DNA from: Ruminiclostridium sp.
GTDB lineage: Bacteria; Bacillota; Clostridia; Oscillospirales; Ruminococcaceae
Length of the DNA stretch: 37,183 nt
Assembly (NCBI GenBank): GCA_024682455.1
Contig: JAIKZF010000038.1
Coordinates: 1 to 37,183, forward strand
Direction of reading: 5' to 3'
Below, piece after piece: positions 12,480 through 35,995 of the stretch. The stretch's first letter is position 1; each line of letters starts with the position of its first letter. The notes below the pieces were generated by a model. The model had not been told where the DNA came from, made no database searches, and worked only from the letters and a program-made list of their open reading frames with translations. A program made the translations under genes and the position numbers.

Positions 12480-15143
12480 TTATGAGCGTTTTCTGCGCTT
12501 TCCTGCCGCGAGCATAGCCGCGCCGGCAATGAATACGACCGCGATATCGCCGATCGGAGCGCCGGTATTCGGGTTGGTCTCCGAGCCCGCGCTTACGCTG
12601 CCGGAGATCTCGGTAAGACCGTACTTTTCACCGAAAGCGTTGGTCAGATCCTTAAGCTGCATATAGGTCTCAAGCGGCTTTTTGCCATAATCGAACACGA
12701 TGCTGCTGTTGATGATCCTGCCTGTCTCAAGCTCGCGCATGATGTTTCTCGCCATACTTACGTTGGGCTCAACATCGACGAACTTGACGTGCACGTTGTA
12801 ACCCGCAGCCTCAAAGGGCTTTATGTATTTGTCCATGAGCTTGTCGAAGCCGTCGCCTACCGTAGGAATGATCACATTCACGCCATTCATGCTTCCTGTG
12901 ATGAACTCCTCTATTACGGAAGCCGTGATATTCGAGCTTTCCTTATGCACCGCGTCAGCCGCAGCGCCGTAGGTCTCCTTGTATTCGGGAAGAAGCTCCT
13001 TAACCACGTCGGAATCGAGAATGAACGCCTTCATTGCCTCGCTGTCGGGGTCGGTGACTCTCGATGATTTGCCCGCCGCAGGCAGTCCGCACACAAGCTC
13101 CATCTGATATCCCTTTTCGAGCTCGCCGTCATAGACATAGGTATGTCTGCCGTTCTCATCTACGCTCTCCGTTCTTGCGGAGCCTATCGACAGGAATTCC
13201 TTCTTGACCTCCTCACGGAGCTGCTCTCTTTCGGGTGTGTTTATATCGCTTGTCTTTCCGTAGTAGGCTATATAGTAGTCGGACAGCGCGTCGAGCTGCG
13301 CGACTACATTGCTGCTGCGGAGCTCCTCGATCGTGGGATAGTCGCCTGCCTTTATGCGCTCGTAGAGCTCTCTTGCTTCGTCTGTCTCAATGACAAGATG
13401 CTCGGGCGAGGGCTCCCATGTCACCGGAACAACGTCCGCGAAAGGATCCTGCGCGATACCCATGGTTATTCTGCCCTGACCGAACGGGTCGCTGTACTCG
13501 TCCGGTATAACGCCTCCGAGCACATCCCTGATATAGGCTATCACAGCCTCGGTATCGGACATTACATCGTCCCTGACGATCTTAACGTCTCCGCCGATGA
13601 AATACTTTTTGGCGCCGTCCTTGAACAGATAGTTTATCGAAGCAACGGTGTAGGTCTTTTCAAGGTCGAGCGGTTCTTCGCCCACCATTACATTGTAAAC
13701 TCTGAAATTGCCGTCAACGCTCTCGTATTCGCCGTAATCGTTAAGAATAACGGAGCTCGTTATGGTATCGTCCACCGAGTATGATACTCCGGAGATATGT
13801 ATAAATGAGCCGCTTTCGCCCGGAAGAGCAGCCGCGCCCCTTTCAAGGAGCTCAAGGAGCTGCTGACCGGTTATCTCAGCCACAAGAGTGCTGTTAGAGT
13901 TTGGCAGCACGGATAAGATCTCGTTGTATGTGATCTCGCCCGCTTCGATACCGTCTCTGATGCCGCCGCCGTTCATTATGCCTATCTCTGCGCCGAGGAC
14001 TTCCCTGAACGCGTCCGCGCAGAGGTCACCCAGATTGGTCTCCATCTGCCTTACGATACGATTGCCTGTCTCGGGGTCGGAGTCGGCCAGTACGAAATCG
14101 GTGTGTCCGACCTTCTGTCCGAGCTTTTCGGACAGTCTGTCCCTTATCTCAAGTATCTTGAGATTCACGGCTTCATCGACGAAAATACCTTCTCTGCCGT
14201 CGGGCTCCGTCCACGAATCCTCCGCGATGCCCATACTCTCGTCGGGAGCCGGGACCTCTCCGATGAGCTCGGTCTTCATCGAGCCGTCCGCGGAGATAGT
14301 CAGCTTGCCGATATTGTTGAGCTTTGTGCCGGTCTGCGTTACGATAACGTCCTTGCCGTCCTTCGACTTGACCGTAAGCCCCTGCGTAGTTTCATGGGAA
14401 TGTCCGTCTATTATGACATCTATGCCGGAAAGCTCGCCCGCGATCTCGGGGGCGCTCCAGCCCTTGGTGACATTGCTTTCGCCGAGGTGTCCGAGTATCA
14501 CGACATAGTCCGCGCCCTCGGCTCTCGCGTCGTCTATCGCGGTCTGGATAAGGGTATAGACCGAGCCGTCCTCGCCGAAACTGTAAATGTACTCGCCCTT
14601 GTCGTTCTGGAAGTATGTGGGCGTGGAGGCGGAAAGAGTTTCCGGCGTGGACGCGCCGACGAACGCTACCGTCTTGCTGCCGGCTTCTACAAGCTTATAC
14701 GGCTCGAAAATGAGCTCGCCGGTCTCCTTATTGGTGAAATTCGCGTTGACGTAGCCGCAGTTGAGCTCGTCCGCACGCAGCATGAGCTCGCTCACGCCGT
14801 AGTCGAACTCGTGATTGCCGGTGACAGCCGCGTCATAGCCGACGGCGTTCATTATCTCCGTGATATAAGCTCCGTTGGACAGAGCACCTATGGGCGAGCC
14901 CTGTATCGCGTCGCCCGCGTCAACAAGAATAACGCTGTCGTGAGTCGCTTCCATTTCGCGCTTGTAGAGCGCGAGTCCGTCGTAGCCGATGTGGTCGTCT
15001 ATGCCGCAGTGCACGTCATTTGTGTAGAGAATGACGATATCATCGCTTTTCGCGGTGCCTTCCGCGTACGCGGGGACCACGAAGCTGCCCAGCAGCACGG
15101 TTCCGGCGGTCAGCGCCGAAAACAGTTTCCTGAACTTATACAT
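12480..15143 (-). CDS. Exported, cell-surface-anchored 5'-nucleotidase (UshA-like) fused to a zeta-toxin-like P-loop kinase domain
   Basis: 887 aa. Signal peptide. Metallophosphatase motifs LYTNDVHCG, LVDAGDAIQGSP, GNHEFDYG, LGHLGES, IDGHSHE. 5_nucleotid_C domain. Then MELVCGLPAAGKSSR...ILDSDVVKELLPEY...HKESSNI. C-terminal NPNTGAPIGD-TM-GKRRKRS tail. Confidence 0.9.
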   Translation of the reverse strand: MYKFRKLFSALTAGTVLLGSFVVPAYAEGTAKSDDIVILYTNDVHCGIDDHIGYDGLALYKREMEATHDSVILVDAGDAIQGSPIGALSNGAYITEIMNAVGYDAAVTGNHEFDYGVSELMLRADELNCGYVNANFTNKETGELIFEPYKLVEAGSKTVAFVGASTPETLSASTPTYFQNDKGEYIYSFGEDGSVYTLIQTAIDDARAEGADYVVILGHLGESNVTKGWSAPEIAGELSGIDVIIDGHSHETTQGLTVKSKDGKDVIVTQTGTKLNNIGKLTISADGSMKTELIGEVPAPDESMGIAEDSWTEPDGREGIFVDEAVNLKILEIRDRLSEKLGQKVGHTDFVLADSDPETGNRIVRQMETNLGDLCADAFREVLGAEIGIMNGGGIRDGIEAGEITYNEILSVLPNSNSTLVAEITGQQLLELLERGAAALPGESGSFIHISGVSYSVDDTITSSVILNDYGEYESVDGNFRVYNVMVGEEPLDLEKTYTVASINYLFKDGAKKYFIGGDVKIVRDDVMSDTEAVIAYIRDVLGGVIPDEYSDPFGQGRITMGIAQDPFADVVPVTWEPSPEHLVIETDEARELYERIKAGDYPTIEELRSSNVVAQLDALSDYYIAYYGKTSDINTPEREQLREEVKKEFLSIGSARTESVDENGRHTYVYDGELEKGYQMELVCGLPAAGKSSRVTDPDSEAMKAFILDSDVVKELLPEYKETYGAAADAVHKESSNITASVIEEFITGSMNGVNVIIPTVGDGFDKLMDKYIKPFEAAGYNVHVKFVDVEPNVSMARNIMRELETGRIINSSIVFDYGKKPLETYMQLKDLTNAFGEKYGLTEISGSVSAGSETNPNTGAPIGDIAVVFIAGAAMLAAGKRRKRS

Positions 15144-15197: not shown

Positions 15198-15524
15198 TTA
15201 TCTGCGCGTTACACCTCCTGTCGGTGAGGGACGGCGCTGAGCGAGCTTTTTGGTCTCGTTTGATGCAAAGACCACCTCCGCGTAGATAGCTGCCACTATC
15301 TGATAGAGCTCCTGCGGGATAGCCTCGCCGGAATTGAGCATGACAAGCAGCGCGGCGGTGCTGTCGTCGCGGTAGATCGGGACGCCGTTTGCGTCGGCGA
15401 TGTTCACGATGCGCTGCGCCAGCTCGCCGAGACCCGAGGCTACGACGACGGGGGCGTAGTTGAGGTTCGGGTTGTATTTAAGCGCGACGGCAGCCTTCTG
15501 TCCGTAGTTTTTACGCCTTGACAT
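15198..15524 (-). CDS. FlhB C-terminal-domain homologue (YlqH-like, EscU/YscU/HrcU family)
   Basis: 108 aa: AVALKYNPNLNYAPVVVASGLGELAQRIVNIADANGVPIYRDDSTAALL. Confidence 0.88.
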   Translation of the reverse strand: MSRRKNYGQKAAVALKYNPNLNYAPVVVASGLGELAQRIVNIADANGVPIYRDDSTAALLVMLNSGEAIPQELYQIVAAIYAEVVFASNETKKLAQRRPSPTGGVTRR

Positions 15525-17670: not shown

Positions 17671-17940
17671 TCTGTATCATTCCTTCCTTGCCGAATACGG
17701 GGCGCTTATACCTTTTAAAATATATTATCACATTTTTCTCGGTTTTGCAACCAAAAATATTGAATTTACATAAATTTCGTATACTCATACAAAAATGTTT
17801 GTGCAAAACAGCGATAATTCGAGTCAATAATACGGCGCTCAGCACCGTTTTGTATATATGCGATATACCCTTATCGAACAAATAAAACAGTCTCCCGATC
17901 CGGACACGTGGGAACGGGAGCGGAAAGGCAATGGAAAGTT

Positions 17941-20064
17941 ATGGCTAAAGTAGAACCCGGAATGGAAGCAATGGTCGATGTTTACATCTTTGAAACAACG
18001 GGATTGCTTGAACAGCTCGACGAGATCCTTCTCAGGACAGAGAAGGCGAACGAGTTCACGGAGGATGATATCAATGAGATCTTCCGTATCATGCACACGG
18101 TCAAGGGCTCATCCGCGATGATGGGCTTCGACAACCTCCAGCAGCTCGCGCACAAGGGAGAGGATATGTTCTTCATTATCCGTGAGGCGCCGGAGAAGAT
18201 GACCGATGTGGGCTTTGTCTACGACCTCGTTTTCCAGATGTCCGATCTCTTCAAGGCAGAGATCGATATGATCCAGAACAATGACGACTACGAACCGACG
18301 GATTTCTCCGAGATGATCTCAAGGCTCGAAAAGGGCGCAAAAATGCTCAAGGGCGAGCTTGAGGACGACGGCGGCACAGCCGCTGCGGCTCCCGCAGCAG
18401 AAGCAGAGGCTCCCGCTGCCGCAGCTCCAGCCGACAGCACTACCGTGCGTGTGTTCTTCGAGGACGGCTGCAAAATGGAGAATATCCGCGCTTTTATGTT
18501 GATAAACAATGTAAAGGAGTCCGTCGATGAGGTCGAGATCGTCGGCTATGTGCCCGAGGATATCGAGTCCAATCAGGATTCCGCAAATGTGATAATCGAC
18601 AACGGCTTCCTTATGACGTTCCGCGCTCCCGACCCCAAGGCGGTATTCACCGCTATCGAGAACTCGCTGAACGTGCAGTCCTATGAGGTCGTTGACAACG
18701 TTGCCGCTTCGGCTCCCGCCGAGGCTCCCGCGGCAGAGCCCGCAGCTCCCCCCGCCGCAGCTTCCGGCACGGCTCCCGCTGCTTCCGCTCCCGCGGCAGC
18801 TCCCGCTCCGAAGCCCGCCGCCGCTCCCGCTGAGAAGTCCAAGGCTCCCGAGCAGAAGGCTCCTGCGGCTCCTTCCTCCGGCGGAGGAAAGCAGAGCCTC
18901 ATCAGCGTAAACCTCCAGAAGCTCGACCAGCTCCATGATATCGTCGGTGAGATCATCACCACCGAGTCCATGGTAATATCCAACCCCGAGCTTGAGGGAC
19001 TGCGCCTCGAGAGCTTCACAAAGTCCGCACGCGAGCTCCGCAAGCTGACCGCCGATCTTCAGGATACGGTAATGTCGATCAGAATGGTACCGCTGACCGG
19101 TCCTTTCCAGAAAATGAACCGCATAGTAAGAGATATGAAGGTAAAGCTCGGCAAGGACGTTGAGCTCGTCATAGAGGGCGACACCACCGAGGTGGACAAG
19201 TCTATCGTCGATAACCTCAACGACCCGCTGATGCACCTTGTAAGAAACGCGGTCGACCACGGCATCGAGGATACCTCCGAGGAGCGTGTGGCGCGCGGCA
19301 AGCCCGCCAAGGGCACGGTAAAGCTTTCCGCCATGAGCAGCTCCGGTGAGGTCGTTATCACGATCTCCGACGACGGTCAGGGCATTGACACCGAGAAGGT
19401 CATTCAGAAGGCGGAGCGCAACGGTCTGCTCACAAAACCGATCTCCGAATACTCCGAGCGCGAGATACAGAATATGATACTGCTGCCGGGCTTCTCTACC
19501 AACGATGTAGTCACCGAGTACAGCGGCAGAGGCGTCGGCATGGACGTTGTAAAGTCCAACCTCAGCAAAATGGGCGGCTCGCTCACCGTTGAGTCCAAGA
19601 AAGGCGAGGGTACCTCGTTCATCATCAAGATACCGCTCACTCTCGCTATCGTGGACGGCATGGAGATAATGGTCGGCGACGCGGAATTCACAGTTCCGAT
19701 CTCCGTCATCAAGGAGAGCTTCATCGTCAAGCGCGACCAGATAATCAACGACACCAAGCGCGGCGAGATGATAATGATACGCGGCGTCTGCTACCCGATG
19801 CTCAGACTCAACGAAAAGTTCGGTCTGCCCTCGGACGTCAACGACATCGAGGACGGCATAGTGCTGCTGATAGAGTCCGAGAACAGAGGTATCTGCCTCT
19901 TCGCGGACAAGCTCATCGGCGAACAGCAGGTCGTTGTAAAGCCGTTCCCGAAGTATCTCTCGCAGTACGATATCAAGGGTCAGGGACTCAGCGGCTGCAC
20001 CATTATGGGTGACGGCAGCATCTCCCTCATTATAGATGTCAACAGACTTATCGAGTCACACTAA
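17941..20064 (+). CDS. cheA: Chemotaxis histidine kinase CheA
   Basis: P1 phospho-His MHTVKGSSAMMGF; HATPase MHLVRNAVDHGIE and GRGVGMDVVKSNL; CheW-like C-terminus; Ala/Pro-rich linkers. Start ATG 17941 is chosen inside the longer ORF. Confidence 0.96.
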   Translation: MAKVEPGMEAMVDVYIFETTGLLEQLDEILLRTEKANEFTEDDINEIFRIMHTVKGSSAMMGFDNLQQLAHKGEDMFFIIREAPEKMTDVGFVYDLVFQMSDLFKAEIDMIQNNDDYEPTDFSEMISRLEKGAKMLKGELEDDGGTAAAAPAAEAEAPAAAAPADSTTVRVFFEDGCKMENIRAFMLINNVKESVDEVEIVGYVPEDIESNQDSANVIIDNGFLMTFRAPDPKAVFTAIENSLNVQSYEVVDNVAASAPAEAPAAEPAAPPAAASGTAPAASAPAAAPAPKPAAAPAEKSKAPEQKAPAAPSSGGGKQSLISVNLQKLDQLHDIVGEIITTESMVISNPELEGLRLESFTKSARELRKLTADLQDTVMSIRMVPLTGPFQKMNRIVRDMKVKLGKDVELVIEGDTTEVDKSIVDNLNDPLMHLVRNAVDHGIEDTSEERVARGKPAKGTVKLSAMSSSGEVVITISDDGQGIDTEKVIQKAERNGLLTKPISEYSEREIQNMILLPGFSTNDVVTEYSGRGVGMDVVKSNLSKMGGSLTVESKKGEGTSFIIKIPLTLAIVDGMEIMVGDAEFTVPISVIKESFIVKRDQIINDTKRGEMIMIRGVCYPMLRLNEKFGLPSDVNDIEDGIVLLIESENRGICLFADKLIGEQQVVVKPFPKYLSQYDIKGQGLSGCTIMGDGSISLIIDVNRLIESH

Positions 20065-20080
20065 GGGAGGGAGAATACTT

Positions 20081-20602
20081 ATGGATATCAAAGAATTGTT
20101 TGCCAAGCAGGAAGAAATGAAGCAGAAGACTCTCAACTCGAAGAACGAGAAGGAGAGCGAAATAACGAAGGTCATGACCTTCTATATCGGCGACCAGGTC
20201 TACGGCATAGAGATACCCTACGTCATCGAGATCATCGGAGTCCCGCATATTACGGTCGTTCCCGGCATACCTTATTACATAAAGGGCATAATCAACGTCC
20301 GCAGTAAGGTGGTCCCCGTCATCGACATGAGAAGCCGTTTCGGCAAGGAGGAAAAAGAGTACAACGAACGTACAAACACCATTATCATCGAGGAGAGCGG
20401 CGTTTCCGTCGGCGTTATCGTCGATGAGGTCATCGGCGTTATCCCCGTGTATCAGAAATATATAGCCAATTCCCCCGACCGTATCGGCGTAAATGACAAC
20501 AAGTTCATCAAGTACCTTCTTGAGATGCAGGACGGCATCAAGCTCGTTCTCGATGTTTCGAAGCTCATTTTCGACGGCGATATGTTCATAACCGAGGAAT
20601 AA
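20081..20602 (+). CDS. cheW: Chemotaxis coupling protein CheW
   Basis: FYIGDQVYGIEIPYVIEIIGVPHITVVPGIPYYIKGIINVRSKVVPVIDMRSRFG. GGGAGGGAG Shine-Dalgarno before ATG 20081. Confidence 0.95.
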   Translation: MDIKELFAKQEEMKQKTLNSKNEKESEITKVMTFYIGDQVYGIEIPYVIEIIGVPHITVVPGIPYYIKGIINVRSKVVPVIDMRSRFGKEEKEYNERTNTIIIEESGVSVGVIVDEVIGVIPVYQKYIANSPDRIGVNDNKFIKYLLEMQDGIKLVLDVSKLIFDGDMFITEE

Positions 20603-20621
20603 GGTTTAAGGAAAAGGAAAA

Positions 20622-21443
20622 ATGCAGGTTAAGATAGACGATACCGAATTCAACAGGCTTGTTTCGTTCGTACACGACAACTATGGTATAAATCTCTCGC
20701 AGAAGCGCGTGCTCATTGAGGGCAGACTCGGCAATGAGCTGAAAAACAGGGGCTTCACGGACTATAAATCGTTTCTTGATATGGTGTTCGCGGATAAGAG
20801 CGGCACCGAGGTGGTCAATCTGCTCAACAAGCTCACCACCAATCATACGTATTTCCGCCGCGAGCCCGAGCACTACGCCTTCATGAAGGACGTTTTTCTG
20901 CCCGAGATCAAGCAGAAGAAAGCAAGCTCAAAGACAATATATATCTGGAGCGCGGCCTGCTCCAGCGGTGAGGAGCCGTATACCAACGAGATCGAGATGT
21001 TGGAGTTCTTCGGCATGGACGCTGCGAGCTGGGATACGAAGATACTCGCGACAGACATCTCACGCAAGGTGCTCGCAAAGGCGCAGCAGGGCGTATACCA
21101 CCAGGACAGCATGAAGAATCTCGACCCCAAGGTCATCAAGAAATACTTCATACCTATGGAGAACAACTGCTACCGCGTAAACGACGAGCTTAAAAAGCGC
21201 GTTGTGTTCAAGGTGTTCAACCTCATGGAGCCGATACCGTACAAGAAGCACCCCTTCGACCTCATCTTCTGCCGCAACGTTATGATCTATTTCGACGCCG
21301 AAACAAAGAACGCCCTCGTGAACCGTTTTTACGATGTTATCGCACCGGGCGGATATCTGTTCATAGGTCACGCCGAGAGCATACCACGCGACGCTACGAA
21401 ATTTGAGTATGTAAAGCCGGCGATCTACAGAAAGCCGGAATAA
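20622..21443 (+). CDS. cheR: Chemotaxis methyltransferase CheR
   Basis: TTNHTYFRREPEHY, WSAACSSGEEPYTNEIEM, FDLIFCRNVMIYFD, GGYLFIGHAES. Confidence 0.96.
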   Translation: MQVKIDDTEFNRLVSFVHDNYGINLSQKRVLIEGRLGNELKNRGFTDYKSFLDMVFADKSGTEVVNLLNKLTTNHTYFRREPEHYAFMKDVFLPEIKQKKASSKTIYIWSAACSSGEEPYTNEIEMLEFFGMDAASWDTKILATDISRKVLAKAQQGVYHQDSMKNLDPKVIKKYFIPMENNCYRVNDELKKRVVFKVFNLMEPIPYKKHPFDLIFCRNVMIYFDAETKNALVNRFYDVIAPGGYLFIGHAESIPRDATKFEYVKPAIYRKPE

Positions 21444-21618
21444 TCAAAAAGTACCTTCTCCCCGCCACGTACGGGGAGAAATACCATATTAAAGGGAATT
21501 TTCCGCGGATATGATACCGCTCCCCTGTCAGAGCGCCGATCAAGGGCTTCAGCCGTTATCGTTCAACGGTCTGACAGAAGTTTGTATAAAAAATGCCAAA
21601 AAGAAGGGGGACTGCAAT

Positions 21619-22638
21619 ATGGCGATCAGAATAATCACCGTCGATGATTCCATACTGTTCAGGACAATTATAAAGAAAGAATTCGCGAAATACAACGATA
21701 TAGAGATAATTGATATGGCGGCAAACGCGATGGAGGCGGAAGAGAAGATAATGCGCCTCAAGCCCGATGTCGTCACAATGGACGTTGAGATGCCCGGCAT
21801 GAACGGCATCGACTTCATCAAGTCCTTCCTGCCCAAGAAGCGCGTACCCTTCATCGTCATCACTTCCTCGCCGACAAGAGCATTCGACGCTATCAGCGCG
21901 GGCGCAGTCGAATTCATGAAGAAGCCGCTGGTGCAGAACTCCGCGGATATGGACGCCTTCTGCGCAAGGCTCGCCTCGGTCATCAGATTCGCAGCCCAGG
22001 CAAATATCCGCTCCGGTCCCGTAAGACCGATGGCATCGGCTTCGACGCTGACTATGAGCTCCTCGGTGAACCCGAACAAGATAATAGCTCTCGGCGCGAG
22101 CACGGGCGGCACCGAAGCCCTTATCGAGGTGGTCAAGAGACTCCCGAAGAACTCGCCCCCCGTTGTCATCGTTCAGCATATGCCGGCAGGCTTCACAAAG
22201 ATGTACGCCGAGCGCCTTGACAGGATATGCCAGATGGACGCCAAGGAGGCGGAGAACGGCGACAGACTGCGCCCGGGTCTCATAATACTCGGTGCCGGAG
22301 AATATCACCTGCGCCTGGCGAAGGACGCGCGCGGCTACTACGTTACCAGCAAGCCCGGCGAAAAGGTCTCGGGTCACTGCCCGTCCGTCGACGTGCTTTT
22401 CGAGAGCGTCGCCGAGGTCGCGAGAAACAACGCGGTCGGTGCTATCCTCACCGGAATGGGCGCTGACGGAGCCGAGGGTCTCCTGAAAATGCGCAAGGCG
22501 GGCGCCTATACGATAGGTCAGAATGAGCAGACCTGCGTGGTCTACGGAATGCCTGCCGTGGCGTTCAAGATCGGCGCCGTTATGAAACAGCTCCCGCTCG
22601 AAAAGATTGCCGAGGAAATAATCTCAAAGGTAAAATGA
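21619..22638 (+). CDS. cheB: Chemotaxis response regulator / protein-glutamate methylesterase CheB
   Basis: Receiver MDVEMPGMNGIDF; esterase ALGASTGGTEAL, VIVQHMPAGFTKMYAERL, GILTGMGADGAEGL-type motif. Start ATG 21619. Confidence 0.96.
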   Translation: MAIRIITVDDSILFRTIIKKEFAKYNDIEIIDMAANAMEAEEKIMRLKPDVVTMDVEMPGMNGIDFIKSFLPKKRVPFIVITSSPTRAFDAISAGAVEFMKKPLVQNSADMDAFCARLASVIRFAAQANIRSGPVRPMASASTLTMSSSVNPNKIIALGASTGGTEALIEVVKRLPKNSPPVVIVQHMPAGFTKMYAERLDRICQMDAKEAENGDRLRPGLIILGAGEYHLRLAKDARGYYVTSKPGEKVSGHCPSVDVLFESVAEVARNNAVGAILTGMGADGAEGLLKMRKAGAYTIGQNEQTCVVYGMPAVAFKIGAVMKQLPLEKIAEEIISKVK

Positions 22639-24043: not shown

Positions 24044-24736
24044 ATGTCGGAAAATACCCAGCTTACCGTACCGGGAAGCTTTGAAAATATACTCGGCTCC
24101 GGCCGCACGGAGGAGCTGCTTGAGACCGCGAAGCCTTTCATAGAGCTCATGATGCAGTACGAGTGCGCCGTGCGCGAGGTCGAGACAAAGCTGAACGTCC
24201 TCAACGACGAGTTCTCGACCCTCTATAACTATAATCCCATTGAGACCATAAAGACCCGCGTTAAGGATCCTATCAGCATTATCGGGAAGATGAAGCGCAA
24301 GAATCTCACCCCGACCGTCGAGAATATAGAGAGGAACCTCAACGATATTGCGGGAGTGCGCGTTATCTGCTCCTTCCCCGACGATATCTACGCCATAGCG
24401 GAGATACTTACCGGGCAGGACGACATCACTCTTGTAAAGCGCAAGGACTATATCGCCGACCCGAAGCCCAACGGCTACCGCAGCCTGCACCTTATTATAG
24501 AGATACCCATATTCCTGTCCACCGGCAAGAAGATGATGCGCGTTGAGGTGCAGTTCCGCACTATCGCCATGGACTTCTGGGCGAGCCTTGAGCATAAGCT
24601 GAAATATAAGCACAATGTCCGGGACTCCGAGGAGATATCGGCTTCTCTCAAATCCTGCGCCGACTCGATAGCCGAGCTCGACGCGCGTATGCAGGAGATA
24701 CACAACCGTATAGAGCGCGAAAACGAGGATACGTAA
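24044..24736 (+). CDS. GTP pyrophosphokinase family protein (small alarmone synthetase, RelQ/YjbM-like)
   Basis: KTRVKDPISIIGKMKRK, NDIAGVRVICSFPDDIY, YIADPKPNGYRSLHLII, VEVQFRTIAMDFWASLEHKLKYK. Confidence 0.95.
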   Translation: MSENTQLTVPGSFENILGSGRTEELLETAKPFIELMMQYECAVREVETKLNVLNDEFSTLYNYNPIETIKTRVKDPISIIGKMKRKNLTPTVENIERNLNDIAGVRVICSFPDDIYAIAEILTGQDDITLVKRKDYIADPKPNGYRSLHLIIEIPIFLSTGKKMMRVEVQFRTIAMDFWASLEHKLKYKHNVRDSEEISASLKSCADSIAELDARMQEIHNRIERENEDT

Positions 24737-24738
24737 AC

Positions 24739-24775
24739 AGCGGCGGAAAAGCGGTAAACGCTTTCCGCCGCTTTC
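24739..24775 (+). terminator. Intrinsic terminator
   Basis: AGCGGCGGAAAAGCG-GTAAA-CGCTTTCCGCCGCT hairpin. Confidence 0.75.
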
Positions 24776-24824
24776 CCGTTCCGCTGAAACTGACCGGGTA
24801 ACGGCACACTTTTCAGAACAGAGC

Positions 24825-24853
24825 TTGCATTCCCGCACTATAAATGCTATAAT
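24825..24853 (+). promoter_or_regulatory. Sigma-A promoter
   Basis: TTGCAT - 17 bp - TATAAT. Confidence 0.7.
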
Positions 24854-24897
24854 GCTATCGGAAAGCGGCCCGGATGACGAGAAACGGAGATGTAACT

Positions 24898-26103
24898 ATG
24901 GAAATGATGAAAAAGAACAGGTTCACATACGCGGCAGGCGATATTTTAGATCTGGCCGACGATGCGCTTGTGATGACGACAGACGAGTCCTGCCGCCCCT
25001 TCGGTACGTTAAACGGTGATCTCTGGAATCACGGCGGTGCCGCATTGTTCGGCATCAGGCGCGATCTCCGTCATAAAGGCGAGAAGCTCAAAGCCGGAGA
25101 TATACGGATAACGAGAGGCTACAACCGGACAATGAATAAGGATTATACCTGCATAGTCGCGTGTATGCCTTTGTGTACAGGAAGCTGGGACAGAGAGCTG
25201 ATAGCGGACTGCTACCGCAGATGCATCGAAACGGCAGTCATGAAAGGCAAAAAAAATCTGTTTTTCCCGCTGATCGGCGAGAGTGACAGTACGGATACCG
25301 ACGGTCTGCTGATCTGCGCGGAGTACGCGATAAACGACGCCCTCGGCAGGCTCGGCGCCGATAAGCCCATCGACGTGACCGTTGTTCTGAGCGACGAGGT
25401 GTTCTCGTATATAGTGCCGCTTGAGGAGATGATGACAGGCGGACATCTGCCGGAGCCGGAGTGGCAGGCTGCACACGGCAGCCCTGAGCGCGCCGCCGGA
25501 GAATACGCGGCAAAGAAGCAGGCTTTCCTGACAAGCAAAAGAGAACGTGAGCGCAGTGCCGTTACCGAAAGCATCGTAAAGCGGATAAAGCGGGAAAAGG
25601 AAGCCTTCCTTGCCGAAAATGCCGACAGATACGCGGACGAAAAGCCGGAAAAGATACTGAAAATATTCCGCACGGAAAAGATAGACGGCATAATACAGAA
25701 CTGGTGCGACAGTCCGAACCCGCTCAGGGGACTGGAAAAATATGCCCGCGCTGAAAACAGCCGCAACAGCCTCGCGCAGACGACAGGTATCTCGGCGCAG
25801 ACTCTGACCGACATAAACGGCAAGCACAAGCTCCCCGCGCGAGAGACCCTTCTGGCGTTGGCCGCAGGCATGAAGCTGCCATACGACGAAAGGCTGGAGC
25901 TTATGATGTACCGCGACGAGGATATGCGCTACCCGTCCACCGAAAAGGAAATACTGATCGAGAAGTGCATAGACGAAACGGGCTACGACGAAAACGATAT
26001 GACGTATAAGGAGCTGAACGATCTGGTCTACAAAATGTCGGGCGAAAGGTTCAGCATCTACGACGGGACAGGCATATCGCTCGCCGCGAATAAGGATAAA
26101 TAA
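24898..26103 (+). CDS. Macro-domain protein with C-terminal HTH-like domain
   Basis: N-terminus AAGDILDLADDALVMTTDESCRPFGTLNGDLWNHGGAALF...NLFFPLIGES fits a macro fold. C-terminus NSLAQTTGISAQTLTDINGKHKLPARETLLALAAGMKLPYDERLELM is XRE-like. Confidence 0.7.
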   Translation: MEMMKKNRFTYAAGDILDLADDALVMTTDESCRPFGTLNGDLWNHGGAALFGIRRDLRHKGEKLKAGDIRITRGYNRTMNKDYTCIVACMPLCTGSWDRELIADCYRRCIETAVMKGKKNLFFPLIGESDSTDTDGLLICAEYAINDALGRLGADKPIDVTVVLSDEVFSYIVPLEEMMTGGHLPEPEWQAAHGSPERAAGEYAAKKQAFLTSKRERERSAVTESIVKRIKREKEAFLAENADRYADEKPEKILKIFRTEKIDGIIQNWCDSPNPLRGLEKYARAENSRNSLAQTTGISAQTLTDINGKHKLPARETLLALAAGMKLPYDERLELMMYRDEDMRYPSTEKEILIEKCIDETGYDENDMTYKELNDLVYKMSGERFSIYDGTGISLAANKDK

Positions 26104-26126
26104 AGGCTTCACGCCTGTACCGGAAT

Positions 26127-26152
26127 TATTCAGCCGTCGGCTGAAGCTTTTT
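26127..26152 (+). terminator. Intrinsic terminator
   Basis: TTCAGCC-GTC-GGCTGAA followed by GCTTTTTT. Confidence 0.8.
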
Positions 26153-26230
26153 TCTCTCCGATATGTTATAATACGATCATGGAAGCCGGAAACGGCGAAA
26201 AACGATAATAACATAACGGAGGAAACGGCT

Positions 26231-26848
26231 ATGACAGACCACATCATCACAAACACCATAACAGCCCCGGCGTATATCCGCAGCGGATCGTCGGGTATAA
26301 GAGAGGTGCCTCTCGACAGCGAGCTGCTCTCGAAGCGCATCATCGTTCTCAACGGCGAGATCACGCCGGAGACCGCGGTGGGGTTCTTCATGAGTATGCA
26401 GTACCTCACCCGCACGAACGAGCCTATAAACATCTATATCTACTCTCCGGGCGGCGACGTGACCGCGGGCAGAGCGATATACGACATGATGCAGGGCTGC
26501 CGCAATGAGGTAAGGACTTACTGCATCGGCATGGCGGCAAGCATGGCGGCGGTGCTGCTGGCTGCGGGGACTCACGGCTCACGCTTTATACTCCCGAACG
26601 GCGAGGTAATGATCCATGAGGTGCTCACCAAGAGCATCGGCGGCTCAGCCACCTCGATCACTAAGCTCTGCGCCTCGATCAACGAGGTCAGGGACATTAT
26701 GAACGGCATACTGGCGAATCACACCGGCAAAACCGTCAAGGAGATAAACAAGGCTACCTCCTTCGACAACTACATGAACGCTGAGCAGGCGATAGAGTTC
26801 GGTATATGTGATAAGATAGTGACTGACATTTTCGGGGAGGCTGAGTAA
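26231..26848 (+). CDS. ClpP-like serine protease
   Basis: INIYIYSPGGDVTAGRAIYDMM, GMAASMAA (Ser), MIHEVL (His), FDNYMNAEQAIEFGICDKI (Asp). The catalytic triad appears intact. GGAGGAAA Shine-Dalgarno. Confidence 0.93.
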   Translation: MTDHIITNTITAPAYIRSGSSGIREVPLDSELLSKRIIVLNGEITPETAVGFFMSMQYLTRTNEPINIYIYSPGGDVTAGRAIYDMMQGCRNEVRTYCIGMAASMAAVLLAAGTHGSRFILPNGEVMIHEVLTKSIGGSATSITKLCASINEVRDIMNGILANHTGKTVKEINKATSFDNYMNAEQAIEFGICDKIVTDIFGEAE

Positions 26849-26849
26849 T

Positions 26850-28100
26850 ATGATGACAAATGAGAACACGGGAACAGTAAGGATAGCGCAGGGCTGCTCG
26901 TACAGCCTCGACGACCTGAGGACGGGTATCAACAACAACATTCTGGCGGTAGGCTCCAGCGGTACGGGAAAGACCCGCTCGCTGGTCATTCCGGCGCTTC
27001 ATGAGGCTGTCGGCTCCTACTTTATCGTAGACCCCAAGGGTCTGCTTTACCGGAGCTTCGCACCGTACCTTGAGAGCAAGGGCTATGTGACAAAGCTCAT
27101 CAACTTTGCGGATCCGGCTCACTCCGACGGCTACAACCCCATGGAATGCATACATTCGACGCAGGATATCATCAAGCTCGCGGAGCTTATCACCGATTCA
27201 AAGCAGACCGTAGGCACAGACCCGTTCTGGGATCAGAACGAGATGATATATCTGTGCGCGCTGACAGGCTACCTTTACGAGACCAGGATCATGCCCATGA
27301 ATATCAGCTCTATACTCAAGCTCAATAACGAGGGTGAGCGCGACGGAGAGTATGACAAGTCCTCAAAGCTCCGCAGGCGGTTTCATGAGCACAAGCGTAA
27401 AAACCCGGACAGCTGGGCGTGCATGAAGTTCGACGAGGTGGACGTCACGCCGTACAAGACCTACGACTGCATCAGGTCGACGCTCTCCGGCAAGTTCTCA
27501 AAGCTCGACACAAAGGAGCTTCGCACGATGATGCGCAAGGGCAGGTTAAGCTTTACCGACGCCGCGACCCGCAAGACCGCCGTGTTCGTGACCATAAGCG
27601 ACACCGACAGATCAATGGATATGCTCGCCAACCTCTTCTTTTCACAGGCTTTGAACAGTCTCTGCGACTACGCCGACAAGGAATGCGGCGGAAGGCTCCC
27701 CATACCGGTGCGGCTGATACTCGACGACTTCGCCACCAACGTCACGATAAGAGAGTTCCCGCGAATGATCGCGTCCATACGCTCCCGCGGCATATCTACC
27801 ATGCTCCTTATACAGGCGGAGTCGCAGCTTGAGCAGAACTACAAGCAGGACGCCCGCACCATAATCTCCAACTGCGACACCTACGTCTATCTCGGCACAA
27901 ACGACCTGAACACAGCAGAAGCGATAAGCAAGCGCTGTGACCGCGAACTCTGGGACGTTCTGTATATGCCCAGAGGACGCTGCTGGGTGTTCCGCAGCGG
28001 CGATCAGCCGGTAAACGCAAAGCTCGTCGACCCCGTGCCGCTCATTGAAGAAATGAAAGACAGCGTGAAAAAGGAATATACCGAAGAGCTGCCCGCGTAA
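26850..28100 (+). CDS. Soluble VirD4/TraG-like (HerA/FtsK superfamily) ATPase
   Basis: ILAVGSSGTGKTRSLVIPAL (Walker A), YFIVDPKGLLYRSFAPYL, VRLILDDFATN (Walker B), MIASIRSRGISTMLLIQAESQLEQNY, ISNCDTYVYLGTND. No N-terminal TM segments. Confidence 0.88.
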   Translation: MMTNENTGTVRIAQGCSYSLDDLRTGINNNILAVGSSGTGKTRSLVIPALHEAVGSYFIVDPKGLLYRSFAPYLESKGYVTKLINFADPAHSDGYNPMECIHSTQDIIKLAELITDSKQTVGTDPFWDQNEMIYLCALTGYLYETRIMPMNISSILKLNNEGERDGEYDKSSKLRRRFHEHKRKNPDSWACMKFDEVDVTPYKTYDCIRSTLSGKFSKLDTKELRTMMRKGRLSFTDAATRKTAVFVTISDTDRSMDMLANLFFSQALNSLCDYADKECGGRLPIPVRLILDDFATNVTIREFPRMIASIRSRGISTMLLIQAESQLEQNYKQDARTIISNCDTYVYLGTNDLNTAEAISKRCDRELWDVLYMPRGRCWVFRSGDQPVNAKLVDPVPLIEEMKDSVKKEYTEELPA

Positions 28101-30035: not shown

Positions 30036-30587
30036 TTATTCCTCGGGCTCGGTTTTTTCGGCGGGCTCGGGCTTTTCGGCGGGCTTCGGGGTGTCGGAGC
30101 GCACAGAGCCGCTGCCTGTTCTCACGCCGTATTTCAGCAGCTCGGCGGAAGCCATGATAAAGCCGCCGAACACCATTGCTCCGCAGCCGAAGGACTGGTC
30201 TCCTATATCAGCGATATTGTATGAGTTCATCGCTATCACCATGGGATAGAGCCCTACGATAAGCATGTGCACTATACCGCCGAATATCGCGGCATACGCC
30301 ACGGCATTCACGCCGTTTATCACCTCGGCTATGAACGGCGTCCCGAAGGTCCTGAGCTTGACCATGGCGATTATCATGAATATCACCGCCACAAGCACGG
30401 CAAGAAGATCAACTCCCTGAACCACAAGCTTACACAGCCTTTCGGTGTCGTGTATGAAGTCGCCCGGAGCCATAAGGCTCTTAACGAACGCCCAGCCGAA
30501 TATGGCCAGCGCCACTCCCGATATCACGCATACGGTCGCTATCAGAGCGACGGGCTCCAGTATTTTGAAATTTCTTTCGTCCTTCAT
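30036..30587 (-). CDS. Hypothetical polytopic membrane protein
   Basis: 183 aa with about four hydrophobic segments and a PKPAEKPEPAEKTEPEE tail. Confidence 0.8.
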   Translation of the reverse strand: MKDERNFKILEPVALIATVCVISGVALAIFGWAFVKSLMAPGDFIHDTERLCKLVVQGVDLLAVLVAVIFMIIAMVKLRTFGTPFIAEVINGVNAVAYAAIFGGIVHMLIVGLYPMVIAMNSYNIADIGDQSFGCGAMVFGGFIMASAELLKYGVRTGSGSVRSDTPKPAEKPEPAEKTEPEE

Positions 30588-30713: not shown

Positions 30714-30742
30714 TTGAAAAAACATGATATTTATGATATAAT
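30714..30742 (+). promoter_or_regulatory. Sigma-A promoter of the TerB-N/ATPase/helicase operon
   Basis: TTGAAA - 17 bp - TATAAT. Confidence 0.75.
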
Positions 30743-30781
30743 GATACAGGATATCGGCTCGTGACGAAAGGGGGCGGCAGC

Positions 30782-32302
30782 GTGGATCCGAAAAAACAGC
30801 TCGAAGAGATATACAGGATCATAGAGCAGCTCGGTCAGGACGACAATCTGAAAAAGAACGCCTCGCAGGACGGCGTGTACAGCGACGAGCCCATACTGCG
30901 CACCGCCGCGCAGATACCGCGTCCCGCCGCCAAAGCCGCGGTTCCCGCGAAGATCAGGGATATGCGCGACCTCGCCTTTGCGGACCATATGTTCTGGCAG
31001 CCCAAGGAGCGCATTTTTATCGAACAGGCTCGCTTCATGGAGAGCTATGAGGACGATCTTGAATATACCGGGCAGTTAGAACTCTCGTTCCCTACCTATT
31101 CCGATCTTACGATCGAGCAGCTGCGCGGGTATTTCACCTGGCGCGCCGCAGTACGCAAAGGCGGCTTCCCCGACGCGCCGAAAGCCTTCATCTATATCTA
31201 CTGCTTTGAGCTGATAAACGGTATCGGAGCCGAAAGCCCCGAGGACAGCTGCGCAAAGCTTGCCCGGATACGCGACAGATACGGCGAAGACCGTTTCCTG
31301 AAACGTGACACGGAGCGCTGGATAAAGGATCTGGCCATATACCACAGACTTGCGCCGGAGCTCGCTTCCCTGCCCTCTGTCGGCGCCGAGCCTGCCGTTT
31401 ACGTGCTGACCCACCCCGGCGGGTATGACGACGGGGAGCTTTTCGGCGCGGTAAAGGAGCTGTCCGACTACCTGATCGAAACAAGCACGTATTATAAGGA
31501 ATACCCCGCCGAGGTCGCCGAGGTGACCTGCGGGCTTTTCCGCGCGCTGGCGGAATACTTCGGAGGAGACGGCAGCGAGCAGCTCATGAAAAAGCTGTAC
31601 ACCACGCATGCCAGATCACATCACTATCACAGGCTGTTCCTCGGAGCTGTTTTTGTGGATATGATGAGAGACAGGAGCTATGTCTACGAGCTGAATATCT
31701 GCGAGCATTACGAGTGCGAGAACGGTGTATACAGCTGCGATATGGTATATGTCCCGCCTCACAGGAATCACGTTATCGGCATGCTGCTGCGCGCCGTTGA
31801 CTATATGATGCGGAAAAGATACGGGTTCAGATATAAGCTCGGGAGCTGCAGGGTGAGCAGTGAGGACGAGAAGCTCATAAACGCTGCTATGGACAGGCTC
31901 GACGAGCACAAAAAACAGAACAGTATCAAAAAAGTTGAAATAGACGTGAGCAAGCTCGGAAATATAAGACATTCGGCGGACATTATCCGTGAGAAGCTTA
32001 TAGTCGATGACGAGGAGGACGGGACTCCCGCGGATCCCGTGCCGGAGCCCGGGCAGCCCGCGCCGGAGGACAGCGTTCTGCCGCTGAACGACGGCGAGCT
32101 GGGTTATCTGCGCTGCCTGCTTTACGGCGGAGACGCGAACGCCGCCGCAAAGTCCGCGGGCAGTATGCCCTCGCTGCTTGCCGACGCGATAAACGATAAG
32201 CTGTTCGATATGTTCGGGGACACGGTGATAGAGCTGTCCGGCGGCGAACCGAGCGTTATAGAGGATTATACGGACGAACTGAAAGGACTGATAACGACAT
32301 GA
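30782..32302 (+). CDS. TerB-N / TerB-C domain protein
   Basis: IFIEQARFMESYEDDLEYTGQLELSFPTYSDLTIEQLRGYFTWRAAVRKGGFPDAPKAFIYIYCFELINGIG is the TerB-N signature. GTG 30782 has GGGGG upstream; GTG 30761 is the alternative. Confidence 0.9.
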   Translation: MDPKKQLEEIYRIIEQLGQDDNLKKNASQDGVYSDEPILRTAAQIPRPAAKAAVPAKIRDMRDLAFADHMFWQPKERIFIEQARFMESYEDDLEYTGQLELSFPTYSDLTIEQLRGYFTWRAAVRKGGFPDAPKAFIYIYCFELINGIGAESPEDSCAKLARIRDRYGEDRFLKRDTERWIKDLAIYHRLAPELASLPSVGAEPAVYVLTHPGGYDDGELFGAVKELSDYLIETSTYYKEYPAEVAEVTCGLFRALAEYFGGDGSEQLMKKLYTTHARSHHYHRLFLGAVFVDMMRDRSYVYELNICEHYECENGVYSCDMVYVPPHRNHVIGMLLRAVDYMMRKRYGFRYKLGSCRVSSEDEKLINAAMDRLDEHKKQNSIKKVEIDVSKLGNIRHSADIIREKLIVDDEEDGTPADPVPEPGQPAPEDSVLPLNDGELGYLRCLLYGGDANAAAKSAGSMPSLLADAINDKLFDMFGDTVIELSGGEPSVIEDYTDELKGLITT

Positions 32303-33615
32303 AGATACCGAAGCGCATAGCCTCGGCTGTGATAAATTCTCTCAAGGGAGGCGTTGTTCCGCGTATCGGACTGCCCTACATCACTGTGGGCAGAGAGGCA
32401 GAGATAAACGCCCTGCTGCACGATGTCGACATCATCGCGGACGGAGGAGCGGCGTTCCGCTTCATCGTCGGCAAGTACGGAAGCGGCAAGAGCTTCCTGC
32501 TCCAGACTATACGCAGCCACGTTATGGACAGGGGATTCGTAGTGGTCGACGCCGACCTCTCACCCGAGAGGAGGCTCCAGGGCACAAAGGGACAGGGGCT
32601 CGCGACCTACAAGGAGCTTATCCGCAATATGTCCACCAAGACCTGCCCGGACGGCGGAGCCCTTACCCTGATACTCGACCGCTGGATAAGCGGCGTGCAG
32701 GCGGAGACCGCCGCAGACAGCGGGCTCGCTGCGGATTCGCCTGAGTTCGCGAAGCTGGTGGAAAAGAAGATATACACCGTGATAAGCTCGCTGAACGAAA
32801 TGGTGCACGGCTTCGATTTCGCAAGGCTGCTGACCATTTACTGCCGCGCCTGCACCGACGGGAACGACGAGGACAAGGCTAAGGTCGCGAAGTGGTTCCG
32901 CGGCGAGTACGCGAACAAGACCGACGCCAAGGCTGAGCTCGGCGTCAACATCATAGTAACCGACGACGATTGGTACGAGTATATCAAGCTTTTCGCGGCG
33001 TTTCTTAAAATGGCGGGCTACAACGGGCTGCTGGTGCTGATAGACGAGCTTGTGAACATCTACAAGGTACCGAACTCGATAACCCGCCAGTACAACTACG
33101 AAAAGATACTGACGATGTACAACGACACCCTGCAGGGCAAGGCAAAGCACCTCGGCATCATCATGGGCGGGACTCCGCAGTGCATCGAGGACACGCTGCG
33201 CGGCGTATACAGCTATGAGGCTCTGCGCTCGCGGCTCTCCGAGGGACGCTTCGGGCGCGAAGGCATAAAGGATATGCTTGCTCCCGTGATACATCTGGTG
33301 CCTCTCACCTATGAGGAGATGCTGGTGCTGACCGAAAAGCTGGCCGATATCCATGCCCAGCTCTTCGACTATGAGCAGCGCATGACCCAGGATGATATGA
33401 TCGCGTTCATTAAGACTGAATTCGGCAGGATAGGCGCGGATACGCATATCACGCCTCGCGAGGTCATACGCGACTTCATCGAGCTGCTGGATATCATTTA
33501 CCAGAACCCGGATATCAATATCACGGAGTTCATCGGCTCCGGCGGTATGAAGTTCACCGCTCCCGACGGCGGCGACGATGACGACAGCGGCGAGTTCGCG
33601 GAATTTGAGGTTTAA
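32299..33615 (+). CDS. BrxD-like P-loop ATPase (BREX ATP-binding domain, DUF2791)
   Basis: RIGLPYITVGREAEINALLHDVDIIADGGAAFRFIVGKYGSGKSFLLQTIR, VVDADLSPERRLQG, GLLVLIDELVNIYK. Start overlaps the TerB-N stop (ATGA). Confidence 0.9.
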   Translation: MKIPKRIASAVINSLKGGVVPRIGLPYITVGREAEINALLHDVDIIADGGAAFRFIVGKYGSGKSFLLQTIRSHVMDRGFVVVDADLSPERRLQGTKGQGLATYKELIRNMSTKTCPDGGALTLILDRWISGVQAETAADSGLAADSPEFAKLVEKKIYTVISSLNEMVHGFDFARLLTIYCRACTDGNDEDKAKVAKWFRGEYANKTDAKAELGVNIIVTDDDWYEYIKLFAAFLKMAGYNGLLVLIDELVNIYKVPNSITRQYNYEKILTMYNDTLQGKAKHLGIIMGGTPQCIEDTLRGVYSYEALRSRLSEGRFGREGIKDMLAPVIHLVPLTYEEMLVLTEKLADIHAQLFDYEQRMTQDDMIAFIKTEFGRIGADTHITPREVIRDFIELLDIIYQNPDINITEFIGSGGMKFTAPDGGDDDDSGEFAEFEV

Positions 33616-33618
33616 GAA

Positions 33619-33652
33619 GCCGCTTACGCTCGAGTGGCCGCTTACGCTCGAG
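33619..33652. repeat. Tandem pair of GCCGCTTACGCTCGAG, period 18 bp (element copy B)
   Basis: Perfect 16-mer pair, same family and period as 9802-9835. Followed by a 17-bp perfect hairpin at 33654-33689. Confidence 0.75.
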
Positions 33653-33653
33653 C

Positions 33654-33689
33654 CCGGGGGAAACTTTTTTGAAAAAAAGTTTCCCCCGG
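33654..33689. repeat. Perfect inverted repeat inside the repeat element
   Basis: CCGGGGGAAACTTTTTT-GA-AAAAAAGTTTCCCCCGG. Confidence 0.8.
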
Positions 33690-33769
33690 ACCCCCTTCAA
33701 AAAACTTTCAACCGCTTCGCTTTTAAATCAGAGAGTTATCTGCGTTATTCAAAAAGATTGGAATAAGTT

Positions 33770-35995
33770 ATGAGTATTTTTGAGAGATACGCGCCCTTCG
33801 TGCAGGATTTCATATACAGAAATAACTGGGAGTCCCTGCGCGCAATACAGACCGCCGCCGGCGACGGTATTTTCAATACCGACGACAATGTGCTCCTGTC
33901 CGCGTCGACCGCCTCGGGCAAGACAGAAGCAGCGTTCTTCCCTATTCTCACCCTGTTCTCCGAGGATATGCCGAAGTCCGTCGGCGCAATATATATAGGA
34001 CCGCTTAAGGCTCTGATAAACGACCAGTTCGCAAGACTGAACGACCTGTGCGCGGAAGCGGATATCCCCGTGTGGCACTGGCACGGCGATGTCTCGCAGT
34101 CCCACAAGGCGAAAATGATGAGGAATCCCTCGGGTATACTCCAGATAACGCCCGAGTCTCTCGAAGCCATGCTTATCCGCAAGCACTCTGCTATCCCTAA
34201 GCTTTTCGGAGATCTGCGCTTCATCGTTATCGACGAGATCCATTCCCTTATGCGCGGTGACCGCGGAGGACAGACTATCTGCCTGATCGAGCGGCTGTCA
34301 AAGCTCGCGGGGGTCAATCCGCGCCGCATAGGTCTGTCCGCGACGATAGGCAACCTTGAGGCAGCGGGCGAGTTCCTGTCCTACGGCTCCGCCAGAAAGA
34401 CATTCATTCCCCGCATAAAGGAAAAAGGAAGCAAATGGCGGCTCTCAATGGAGCATTTCTACGTTGCGGACGTTCAGGCTTCCGAGGGCAAGAAGACCCC
34501 GGACGCCATGCCGCTGCCCGAGGAGCCCACCGACAAGGCTCCGGAGCACGCAGACCCGGGAATGGGTTATATATTTGAACACACCAAGGGGAAAAAATGC
34601 CTTGTCTTCGTAAACTCACGCGAGGAATGCGAGGCTGTCACCACTACCCTGCGCTCATACTGCGAGGCTAACCACGAGCGTGACAGGTTCCTCATACACC
34701 ACGGCAATCTCTCAGTTTCCTACCGCGAGACTGCCGAGACCGCGATGAAGGACGAGGACGTGTACATGACCACCGTTACCACCGCGACTCTGGAGCTGGG
34801 CATAGATATAGGGAGGCTGGAAAGGGCGTTCCAGATAGACGCGCCGTTCACGGTTTCGTCATTTCTGCAGCGCTTGGGACGTACCGGCCGGCGGGAGCTC
34901 CCGCCGGAGATGTGGTTCGTTATCCGCGAGGATATGCCCGAGCCGCGCACTATGATGCCCGAGGCCATACCGTGGAAACTGCTCCAGGGGATAGCTCTGA
35001 TACAATGCTACCTGGAGGAGCGCTGGGTCGAGCCTCCGAAGCTCGACAGGCTGCCGTACAGTCTGCTATACCACCAGACAATGAGCACTCTTGCCTCCTG
35101 CGGGGAGCTGACTGCGGCGGAGCTGGCGCAGCGTGTGCTTACGCTAAAATACTTCCACAGGATATCGCAGGACGACTATAAGATCATGCTTCGCTATCTT
35201 ATCGACAACGACCACATTCAGCGCACCGACGAGGGCGGGCTCATAGTTGGGCTGTCGGGAGAAAGAGTGACCAACTCGTACAAATTCTACGCGGTATTCC
35301 GCGAAAATGAGGAATTTACCGTGCGCTGCGAGTCTCAGGAGCTCGGCACTCTGGTCATGCCTCCGCCTGTCGGCGAGAAGATCGCGTTAGCAGGTCACGT
35401 ATGGCTGGTCACCGAACTCGACCGCAAAGCTCATATGGTCTACTGCCAACCCGTAAAAGGAAAAGTCCCCGCTTATTTCGGGGACTGTCCGGGAGATATC
35501 AACACAAAGATACTGCTGCGTATGCGCGAGGTACTGCAGGAAGACAAGAGCTATCCGTACCTTATGAAGAACGCCGTTCAGCGATTGGCTCAGGCACGAA
35601 TGGCGGCGCGCAATTCATACGTGAGTGATCTGCCGCTGATTGATCTGGGCGGAGATATGTGGGCGCTGTTCCCATGGCTCGGGACGTACGCGTTCCTTGC
35701 GCTGGAGAGGTTCATCAAGATACGATGCGCGGACAGGCTCGGGCTGAAAAGCCTCGATCCGTCGCGTCCGTACTTCATGCAGATAACGATGAAGGCCGGA
35801 GCCAAAGAGTTCTACGACGTGCTCGCGGACGAGGCGAAAAAGCCTCTCGACCCGCTGGAGCTCGTCTATCCCGACGAGGTGCCGGAATTTGAGAAATATG
35901 ACGAATTCGTACCGCCGGAGCTGGTCAGGAAGGGCTTTGCCTGCGGAGTACTGGGCATCGACGAGATGCTGGAGCGCGTGAAGAGCTGGAACTGA
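33770..35995 (+). CDS. DEAD/DEAH-box superfamily II helicase (BrxHII/Lhr-like)
   Basis: ESLRAIQTAAGDGIF, LLSASTASGKTEAAF (motif I), IVIDEIHSLMRGDRG (motif II), IGLSATIGN (motif III), CLVFVNSREECEAV, TTATLELGIDIG, FLQRLGRTGRR (motif VI). Confidence 0.93.
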   Translation: MSIFERYAPFVQDFIYRNNWESLRAIQTAAGDGIFNTDDNVLLSASTASGKTEAAFFPILTLFSEDMPKSVGAIYIGPLKALINDQFARLNDLCAEADIPVWHWHGDVSQSHKAKMMRNPSGILQITPESLEAMLIRKHSAIPKLFGDLRFIVIDEIHSLMRGDRGGQTICLIERLSKLAGVNPRRIGLSATIGNLEAAGEFLSYGSARKTFIPRIKEKGSKWRLSMEHFYVADVQASEGKKTPDAMPLPEEPTDKAPEHADPGMGYIFEHTKGKKCLVFVNSREECEAVTTTLRSYCEANHERDRFLIHHGNLSVSYRETAETAMKDEDVYMTTVTTATLELGIDIGRLERAFQIDAPFTVSSFLQRLGRTGRRELPPEMWFVIREDMPEPRTMMPEAIPWKLLQGIALIQCYLEERWVEPPKLDRLPYSLLYHQTMSTLASCGELTAAELAQRVLTLKYFHRISQDDYKIMLRYLIDNDHIQRTDEGGLIVGLSGERVTNSYKFYAVFRENEEFTVRCESQELGTLVMPPPVGEKIALAGHVWLVTELDRKAHMVYCQPVKGKVPAYFGDCPGDINTKILLRMREVLQEDKSYPYLMKNAVQRLAQARMAARNSYVSDLPLIDLGGDMWALFPWLGTYAFLALERFIKIRCADRLGLKSLDPSRPYFMQITMKAGAKEFYDVLADEAKKPLDPLELVYPDEVPEFEKYDEFVPPELVRKGFACGVLGIDEMLERVKSWN

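Follow-up and report, generated by a model that had tools for sequence, protein, structure and literature searches.

Shango is the name given to a three-gene system composed of a TerB-domain protein, an ATPase and a DEAD/DEAH helicase (PMC10250203). A Shango of equal gene content to the operon described here brought the plating of several phages down 10-100-fold in PAO1, and it also protected liquid cultures of that strain (PMC10250203). The system was reported independently from E. coli, where, in the account given by the citing paper, phages were likewise inhibited (Millman et al. 2022, cited in PMC10250203). Its two motor components have relatives in Type-2 BREX, in which BrxD belongs to the ORC-Cdc6 class and has been suggested to act as a helicase loader, and in which BrxHI is described with a wHTH, a beta-barrel and an Lhr-CTD (PMC12839542). 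SngC, the Shango helicase, has been placed together with BrxHI, DruE and DpdJ in a possibly distinct helicase clade (PMC12278908).

Gene content and assignment of the operon

We analysed a stretch of 37,183 nucleotides (the window), towards the end of which lie three genes with the following features.

30714..30742, + strand: putative promoter-like site, TTGAAA and TATAAT separated by 17 nt, 11/12 bases by consensus scan
30782..32302, + strand: sngA, TerB_N / TerB_C protein of 506 aa, proposed sensor or specificity subunit
32299..33615, + strand: sngB, BrxC/BrxD-type AAA+ ATPase of 438 aa, with an ATGA overlap with sngA
33616..33769, no strand: sngB-sngC gap, a dispersed repeat made of an 18-bp tandem unit and a hairpin with a 16-bp stem
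33770..35995, + strand: sngC, Lhr/BrxHI-type SF2 helicase of 741 aa

The layout agrees with what an earlier note on this DNA had read from its letters, namely a co-directional three-gene operon behind one clean promoter, with the ATPase gene overlapping the stop codon of the TerB gene. The three ORFs are adjacent on the same strand and free of internal stops in the window's ORF list, and the promoter-like site is near consensus, with a TG preceding its second hexamer. The start of sngA is the GTG at 30782, preceded by a ribosome-binding-like stretch (AAAGGGGG); an in-frame GTG upstream, at 30761, is a possible alternative. The 4-bp overlap of sngA and sngB (32299-32302), shared by 39 of 79 related loci, is consistent with translational coupling of the two genes. 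There is no overlap between sngB and sngC, which are separated by 154 bp.

The best PADLOC match of each protein was a Shango component over nearly its full length: SngA for the first (1.3e-60 over residues 26-503), SngB for the second (1.1e-189 over 2-436 of 438 residues) and SngC for the third (1.7e-275 over 3-736 of 741 residues). Pfam assigned TerB_N (4e-23) and TerB_C (2.4e-18) to the first protein, BrxC_BrxD (3.9e-170) to the second, and DEAD (7.9e-27) and Helicase_C (4.8e-16) to the third. All three members of the system, a TerB-domain SngA, an ATPase SngB and a DEAD/DEAH helicase SngC, are present and adjacent on one strand, and the order A-B-C recurs in 72 of 80 loci. Judged on profile scores, as distinct from direct alignment to the proteins tested in P. 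aeruginosa and E. coli, the operon is almost certainly a complete Shango (SngABC) in a rumen-type Ruminococcus. Anti-phage activity would be expected of it by analogy with the tested members (PMC10250203), and that it is both Shango and a defence system appears highly probable. The earlier note had put the trio forward as a candidate stand-alone defence system; it is self-contained and of a defence family, but it is no new candidate, being a further copy of the already described Shango and in that respect an ordinary find.

Both motor proteins carry intact motifs. Walker A (GKYGSGKS) and Walker B (LLVLIDE) are complete in SngB, and Walker A (residues 58-65) and the D249-E250 pair of Walker B are invariant across 19 homologues. 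SngC is, as had been claimed, an SF2 helicase with every motif in place (ASTASGKT, DEIH, SAT, TATLELG and QRLGRTGR), and the helicase and ATPase motifs are almost wholly conserved in relatives. The best fold match of SngC in the PDB was Lhr bound to ssDNA (5v9x, M. smegmatis, E 7e-19), and Lhr was also its top sequence match among solved structures; a sequence search with SngB against the PDB gave a chance-level match only. In the SngC model the helicase core itself is of low confidence, and the helical, barrel-like and alpha/beta segments predicted after it are in keeping with the architecture reported for BrxHI (PMC12839542). Pfam and PADLOC profiles revealed no nuclease domain in any protein of the trio.

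The repeat in the sngB-sngC gap (33616-33769) consists of an 18-bp tandem unit (GCCGCTTACGCTCGAGTG-like) of variable copy number, adjoining a long A/T-cored hairpin (GGGGGAAACTTTTTT...), and it also occurs in L027-L035. It matches 64 places in the same genome, about 10 of them near full length, and it resembles REP or MITE elements, being probably an insertion that lies outside Shango proper. Its hairpin has a fold z-score of -5.1; a dedicated regulatory role is unlikely, because the repeat occurs all over the genome, and the scan did not flag it as a terminator. The two genes sngB and sngC are no more than 60 bp apart in 47 of 73 loci and more than 300 bp apart in 14. What lies between them differs by lineage across loci: a P-loop kinase-like gene (R. 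albus-type loci L067, L068, L069, L072 and L078; decayed in L074, L075 and L077), an ArsC-like gene (L113, L119) or short hypothetical ORFs. Since these inserts are unrelated between lineages, a fourth system gene at this position was rejected, and the junction seems merely to tolerate insertions.

Unequal divergence of the three subunits

SngA has diverged far more than its partners. When nine loci of one genus were compared in pairs, protein distance averaged 0.52 for SngA, against 0.11 for SngB and 0.13 for SngC. In six pairs, SngA dN was 0.11-0.44 and SngB dN 0.026-0.055, a 3.5-12-fold difference, whereas dS was comparable, that of SngA being 1.2-1.7 times that of SngB (rough values, as dS near or above 1 is close to saturation). 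Because the dS values are so similar, fast divergence is favoured over replacement of SngA alleles by transfer. The overall dN/dS of SngA was 0.16-0.31, i.e. <0.35; this is below 1, and positive selection is not demonstrated.

The same pattern was seen at greater distances. Across 73 complete loci, median identity to the window was 37% for SngA, 82% for SngB and 78% for SngC, and SngA was the least conserved of the trio in every one of the 73. Plasmids of Rhodobacterales pointed in the same direction (SngA 55-72%, SngB 85-94%), and in a very close Bradyrhizobium pair the difference was hardly visible (94 vs 97%). The SngA model (pLDDT 81.7) is mostly helical. Fold comparison against the PDB returned nothing with E below 0.001, the top matches being LysR-type DNA-binding domains (E 0.19 at best), and a winged helix placed at the end of SngA from predicted secondary structure is a hint only. 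A PDB sequence search found no relative of SngA.

As SngA changes several times faster than SngB and SngC, it may be the part that senses the invader, and we put the chance that it is a sensor or specificity subunit at about even. The suggestion of the earlier note that the TerB protein is a sensor or adaptor gains indirect support from this rapid evolution. We would go further only tentatively, to a rapidly diversifying recognition subunit that would determine, allele by allele, the phage range, with SngB and SngC as a conserved motor; if that were true, exchanging SngA alone would retarget Shango.

SngA may instead diverge fast through weak constraint, as a scaffold with no part in recognising invaders, an explanation that is quite possible though we stop short of calling it probable. 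The low dN/dS, together with the correlation of SngA and SngB distances (Spearman 0.80), is what steady drift would give. A weakly constrained scaffold sits less well with 13 SngA positions that are invariant across distant homologues, with the concentration of change in the middle of the protein (residues 160-380) and the better conservation of TerB_C, and with the fact that SngA was never missing where SngB was present in 119 relatives.

No mechanism for Shango was found in the papers searched, and we infer the roles of sensor, AAA+ loader and translocase, as we do every functional step. SngA, with its TerB_N domain, variable middle and TerB_C domain, would sense a sign of infection, which might be a phage protein or DNA in an unusual state. 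SngB, an ORC/Cdc6-type AAA+ ATPase translationally coupled to SngA, would relay this signal by loading or activating SngC, an idea taken from what has been proposed for BrxD and BrxHI (PMC12839542). SngC, as an Lhr/BrxHI-type SF2 motor, would then move on phage DNA and either block its replication or expose it to host nucleases. The loader and translocase steps are plausible but somewhat less likely than not. One fast and two slow subunits that co-occur strictly, even when unlinked, amount to a directly testable division of labour, and the useful addition made here, that SngA evolves differently from its partner subunits, opens the sensor question to testing.

Distribution, linkage and surroundings

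The SngA, SngB and SngC models matched the identical 23 of 119 related genomes; two random sets of 23 genomes would coincide with a chance of ~5e-25, a figure that ignores shared ancestry. Linkage was looser than occurrence: sngC lay on a contig other than that of sngAB in four genomes (G047, G076, G100 and G118), and sngA on a contig other than that of sngBC in one (G041), and while draft contigs cannot always tell real unlinking from assembly breaks, the split genes of G047 and G100 lie well inside their contigs. Loss of SngC from the four genomes was rejected, as sngC was found on another contig in each. In genus g7 (L053 7640-12559, L054 and L055), sngA and sngB occupy one and the same site ahead of rny (RNase Y); a GNAT-like gene separates them in 2/3 loci, and sngC is on another contig. 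Shango is split in these genomes, and its site seems to be fixed.

Within the genus of the window the trio was patchily present, in at least five different gene neighbourhoods. A membrane-protein gene (30036-30587 in the window) flanks it in the window, G007 and G039; L037 and L043 share one set of flanks, L039 and L044 another, and L036 and L042 have others. A universal core locus, which the earlier note had held would undo its stand-alone reading, is rejected by this restricted occurrence and these differing contexts. In G111, from another family, SngB identity is 76% and Tex identity 55%; in G024, a congener, the values are 66% and 83%; elsewhere in the genus SngB identity follows Tex. These disagreements and the patchy contexts suggest that vertical descent has been overlaid by some horizontal transfer. 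Named Ruminococcus genomes that encode the trio include those of R. flavefaciens and R. albus, and Shango is common in rumen Ruminococcus, a phage-rich setting.

Homologues of SngB, all at <60% identity, were found in 691 of 72,556 plasmids and in 0 of 50,697 phage records. The 691 plasmids included 449 from Klebsiella and 144 from Salmonella, with 542 predicted conjugative; the full Shango locus was checked in seven other plasmids, outside this Klebsiella/Salmonella count. Defence-island enrichment of the trio in these genomes is not clear (PADLOC matches in at most 11 of 80 proteins near it vs at most 8 of 80 farther away). Some relatives have extra neighbours adjoining the trio: a RecQ/DpdF-like helicase gene (L049, L050), a 1679-aa protein with a REase_MTES_1575 end (L056), a PD-(D/E)XK nuclease gene (a Sulfitobacter plasmid) and AbiE (two plasmids). 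In those relatives a nuclease or toxin function may come from such genes; none of either kind was found directly beside the window trio.

Lhr acts in DNA repair, and we know of no TerB/ATPase operon of which it is part. That Lhr names a family of DNA-repair helicases, and that SngC resembles it in structure, might favour a housekeeping repair or stress module of TerB/Lhr-like proteins in place of a defence system, as might the conserved place of sngAB before rny in 3/3 g7 genomes seen and the unclear enrichment in defence islands. Such a module would hardly be expected in only 23 of 119 relatives and in varied contexts, with signs of transfer and with the trio or SngB homologues on plasmids; homologous Shango systems, moreover, block phages (PMC10250203). 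We regard a housekeeping role as improbable and retain defence.

Several other features of the window were observed. The possibility that the operon had integrated at a downstream tRNA-Leu was rejected: the 3' end of this tRNA is not duplicated anywhere in the window, and it is the 5' side of the tRNA that faces the operon. Three kb upstream of sngA, 24044-28100 encodes a RelA/SpoT-type synthetase, a Macro-domain protein, ClpP and a TraG/VirD4 coupling protein, the last two genes abutting by one base, and this set may be a conjugative-element remnant. Farther upstream, 12480-15143 encodes an unusual fusion, an 887-aa 5'-nucleotidase whose C-terminal part is a Zeta_toxin-like P-loop kinase domain. 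A 108-aa protein (15198-15524), encoded near the chemotaxis genes cheA, cheW, cheR and cheB (17908-22638), matches no part of FlhB except the C-terminal end.

Comparison with BREX and other known systems

BREX profiles ranked second for both motor proteins, BrxD for SngB (3.2e-49 vs 1.1e-189) and BrxHI for SngC (6.6e-120 vs 1.7e-275), and the BrxD equivalog NF033438 (NCBIfam) scored 165.9 bits, far short of the 350 bits set as its curated cut-off. PglZ (PF08665) was not found in the assembly, which is 86% complete, and the only PF10923 (BrxC/D) gene there was sngB, so that a BrxC-type large ATPase beside the BrxD-like gene was not seen in the scan. As for PglX, the window proteins scanned showed no DNA methyltransferase domain, CheR being the sole methyltransferase. 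The earlier note thus holds in seeing no BREX core gene here, and beyond the window, where it had allowed that such genes might lie, the assembly yielded no PglZ and no second PF10923 gene. Its comparison of the helicase with BrxHII has to be replaced, as the actual relative is BrxHI of Type-2 BREX, and BrxHII is a Swi2/Snf2 RapA-like protein of Type-3 BREX (PMC12839542). Nor is a "reduced" module supported, since the three genes are found together again, as a unit in their own right, in Clostridia, Paenibacillus and plasmids of Proteobacteria. A degenerate Type-2 BREX, in which a leftover of the tightly linked BrxD-BrxHI pair (PMC12839542) works with a TerB adaptor, would account for the homology of SngB and SngC to that pair, but it is very improbable and already largely refuted by the far higher Shango scores, the missed BrxD cut-off, the assembly findings for PglZ and PF10923, and the recurrence of the intact trio across many genomes.

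Type-2 BREX nonetheless offers a homologous ORC/Cdc6-type ATPase and Lhr-CTD-type SF2 helicase side by side (PMC12839542), whereas BREX requires BrxC, PglX, PglZ and PglW alongside BrxD-BrxHI and the window trio has a TerB protein instead. Hachiman, with HamB, is like the trio a defence based on an SF2 helicase (PMC12278908), but its helicase is paired with a nuclease, which neither Pfam nor PADLOC detected in the trio. The Lhr helicase of M. smegmatis (PDB 5v9x), which translocates on ssDNA, is the nearest solved fold to SngC, at an identity of only ~19%. The closest counterparts are the Shango systems of P. aeruginosa PA14 and E. coli, which share with the window the same three components and domain types in a stand-alone operon. 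The window differs from them in its host lineage, Ruminococcus, and in the dispersed repeat between sngB and sngC, and its SngA is shorter than those of the Proteobacteria plasmids compared (506 vs 786-873 aa).
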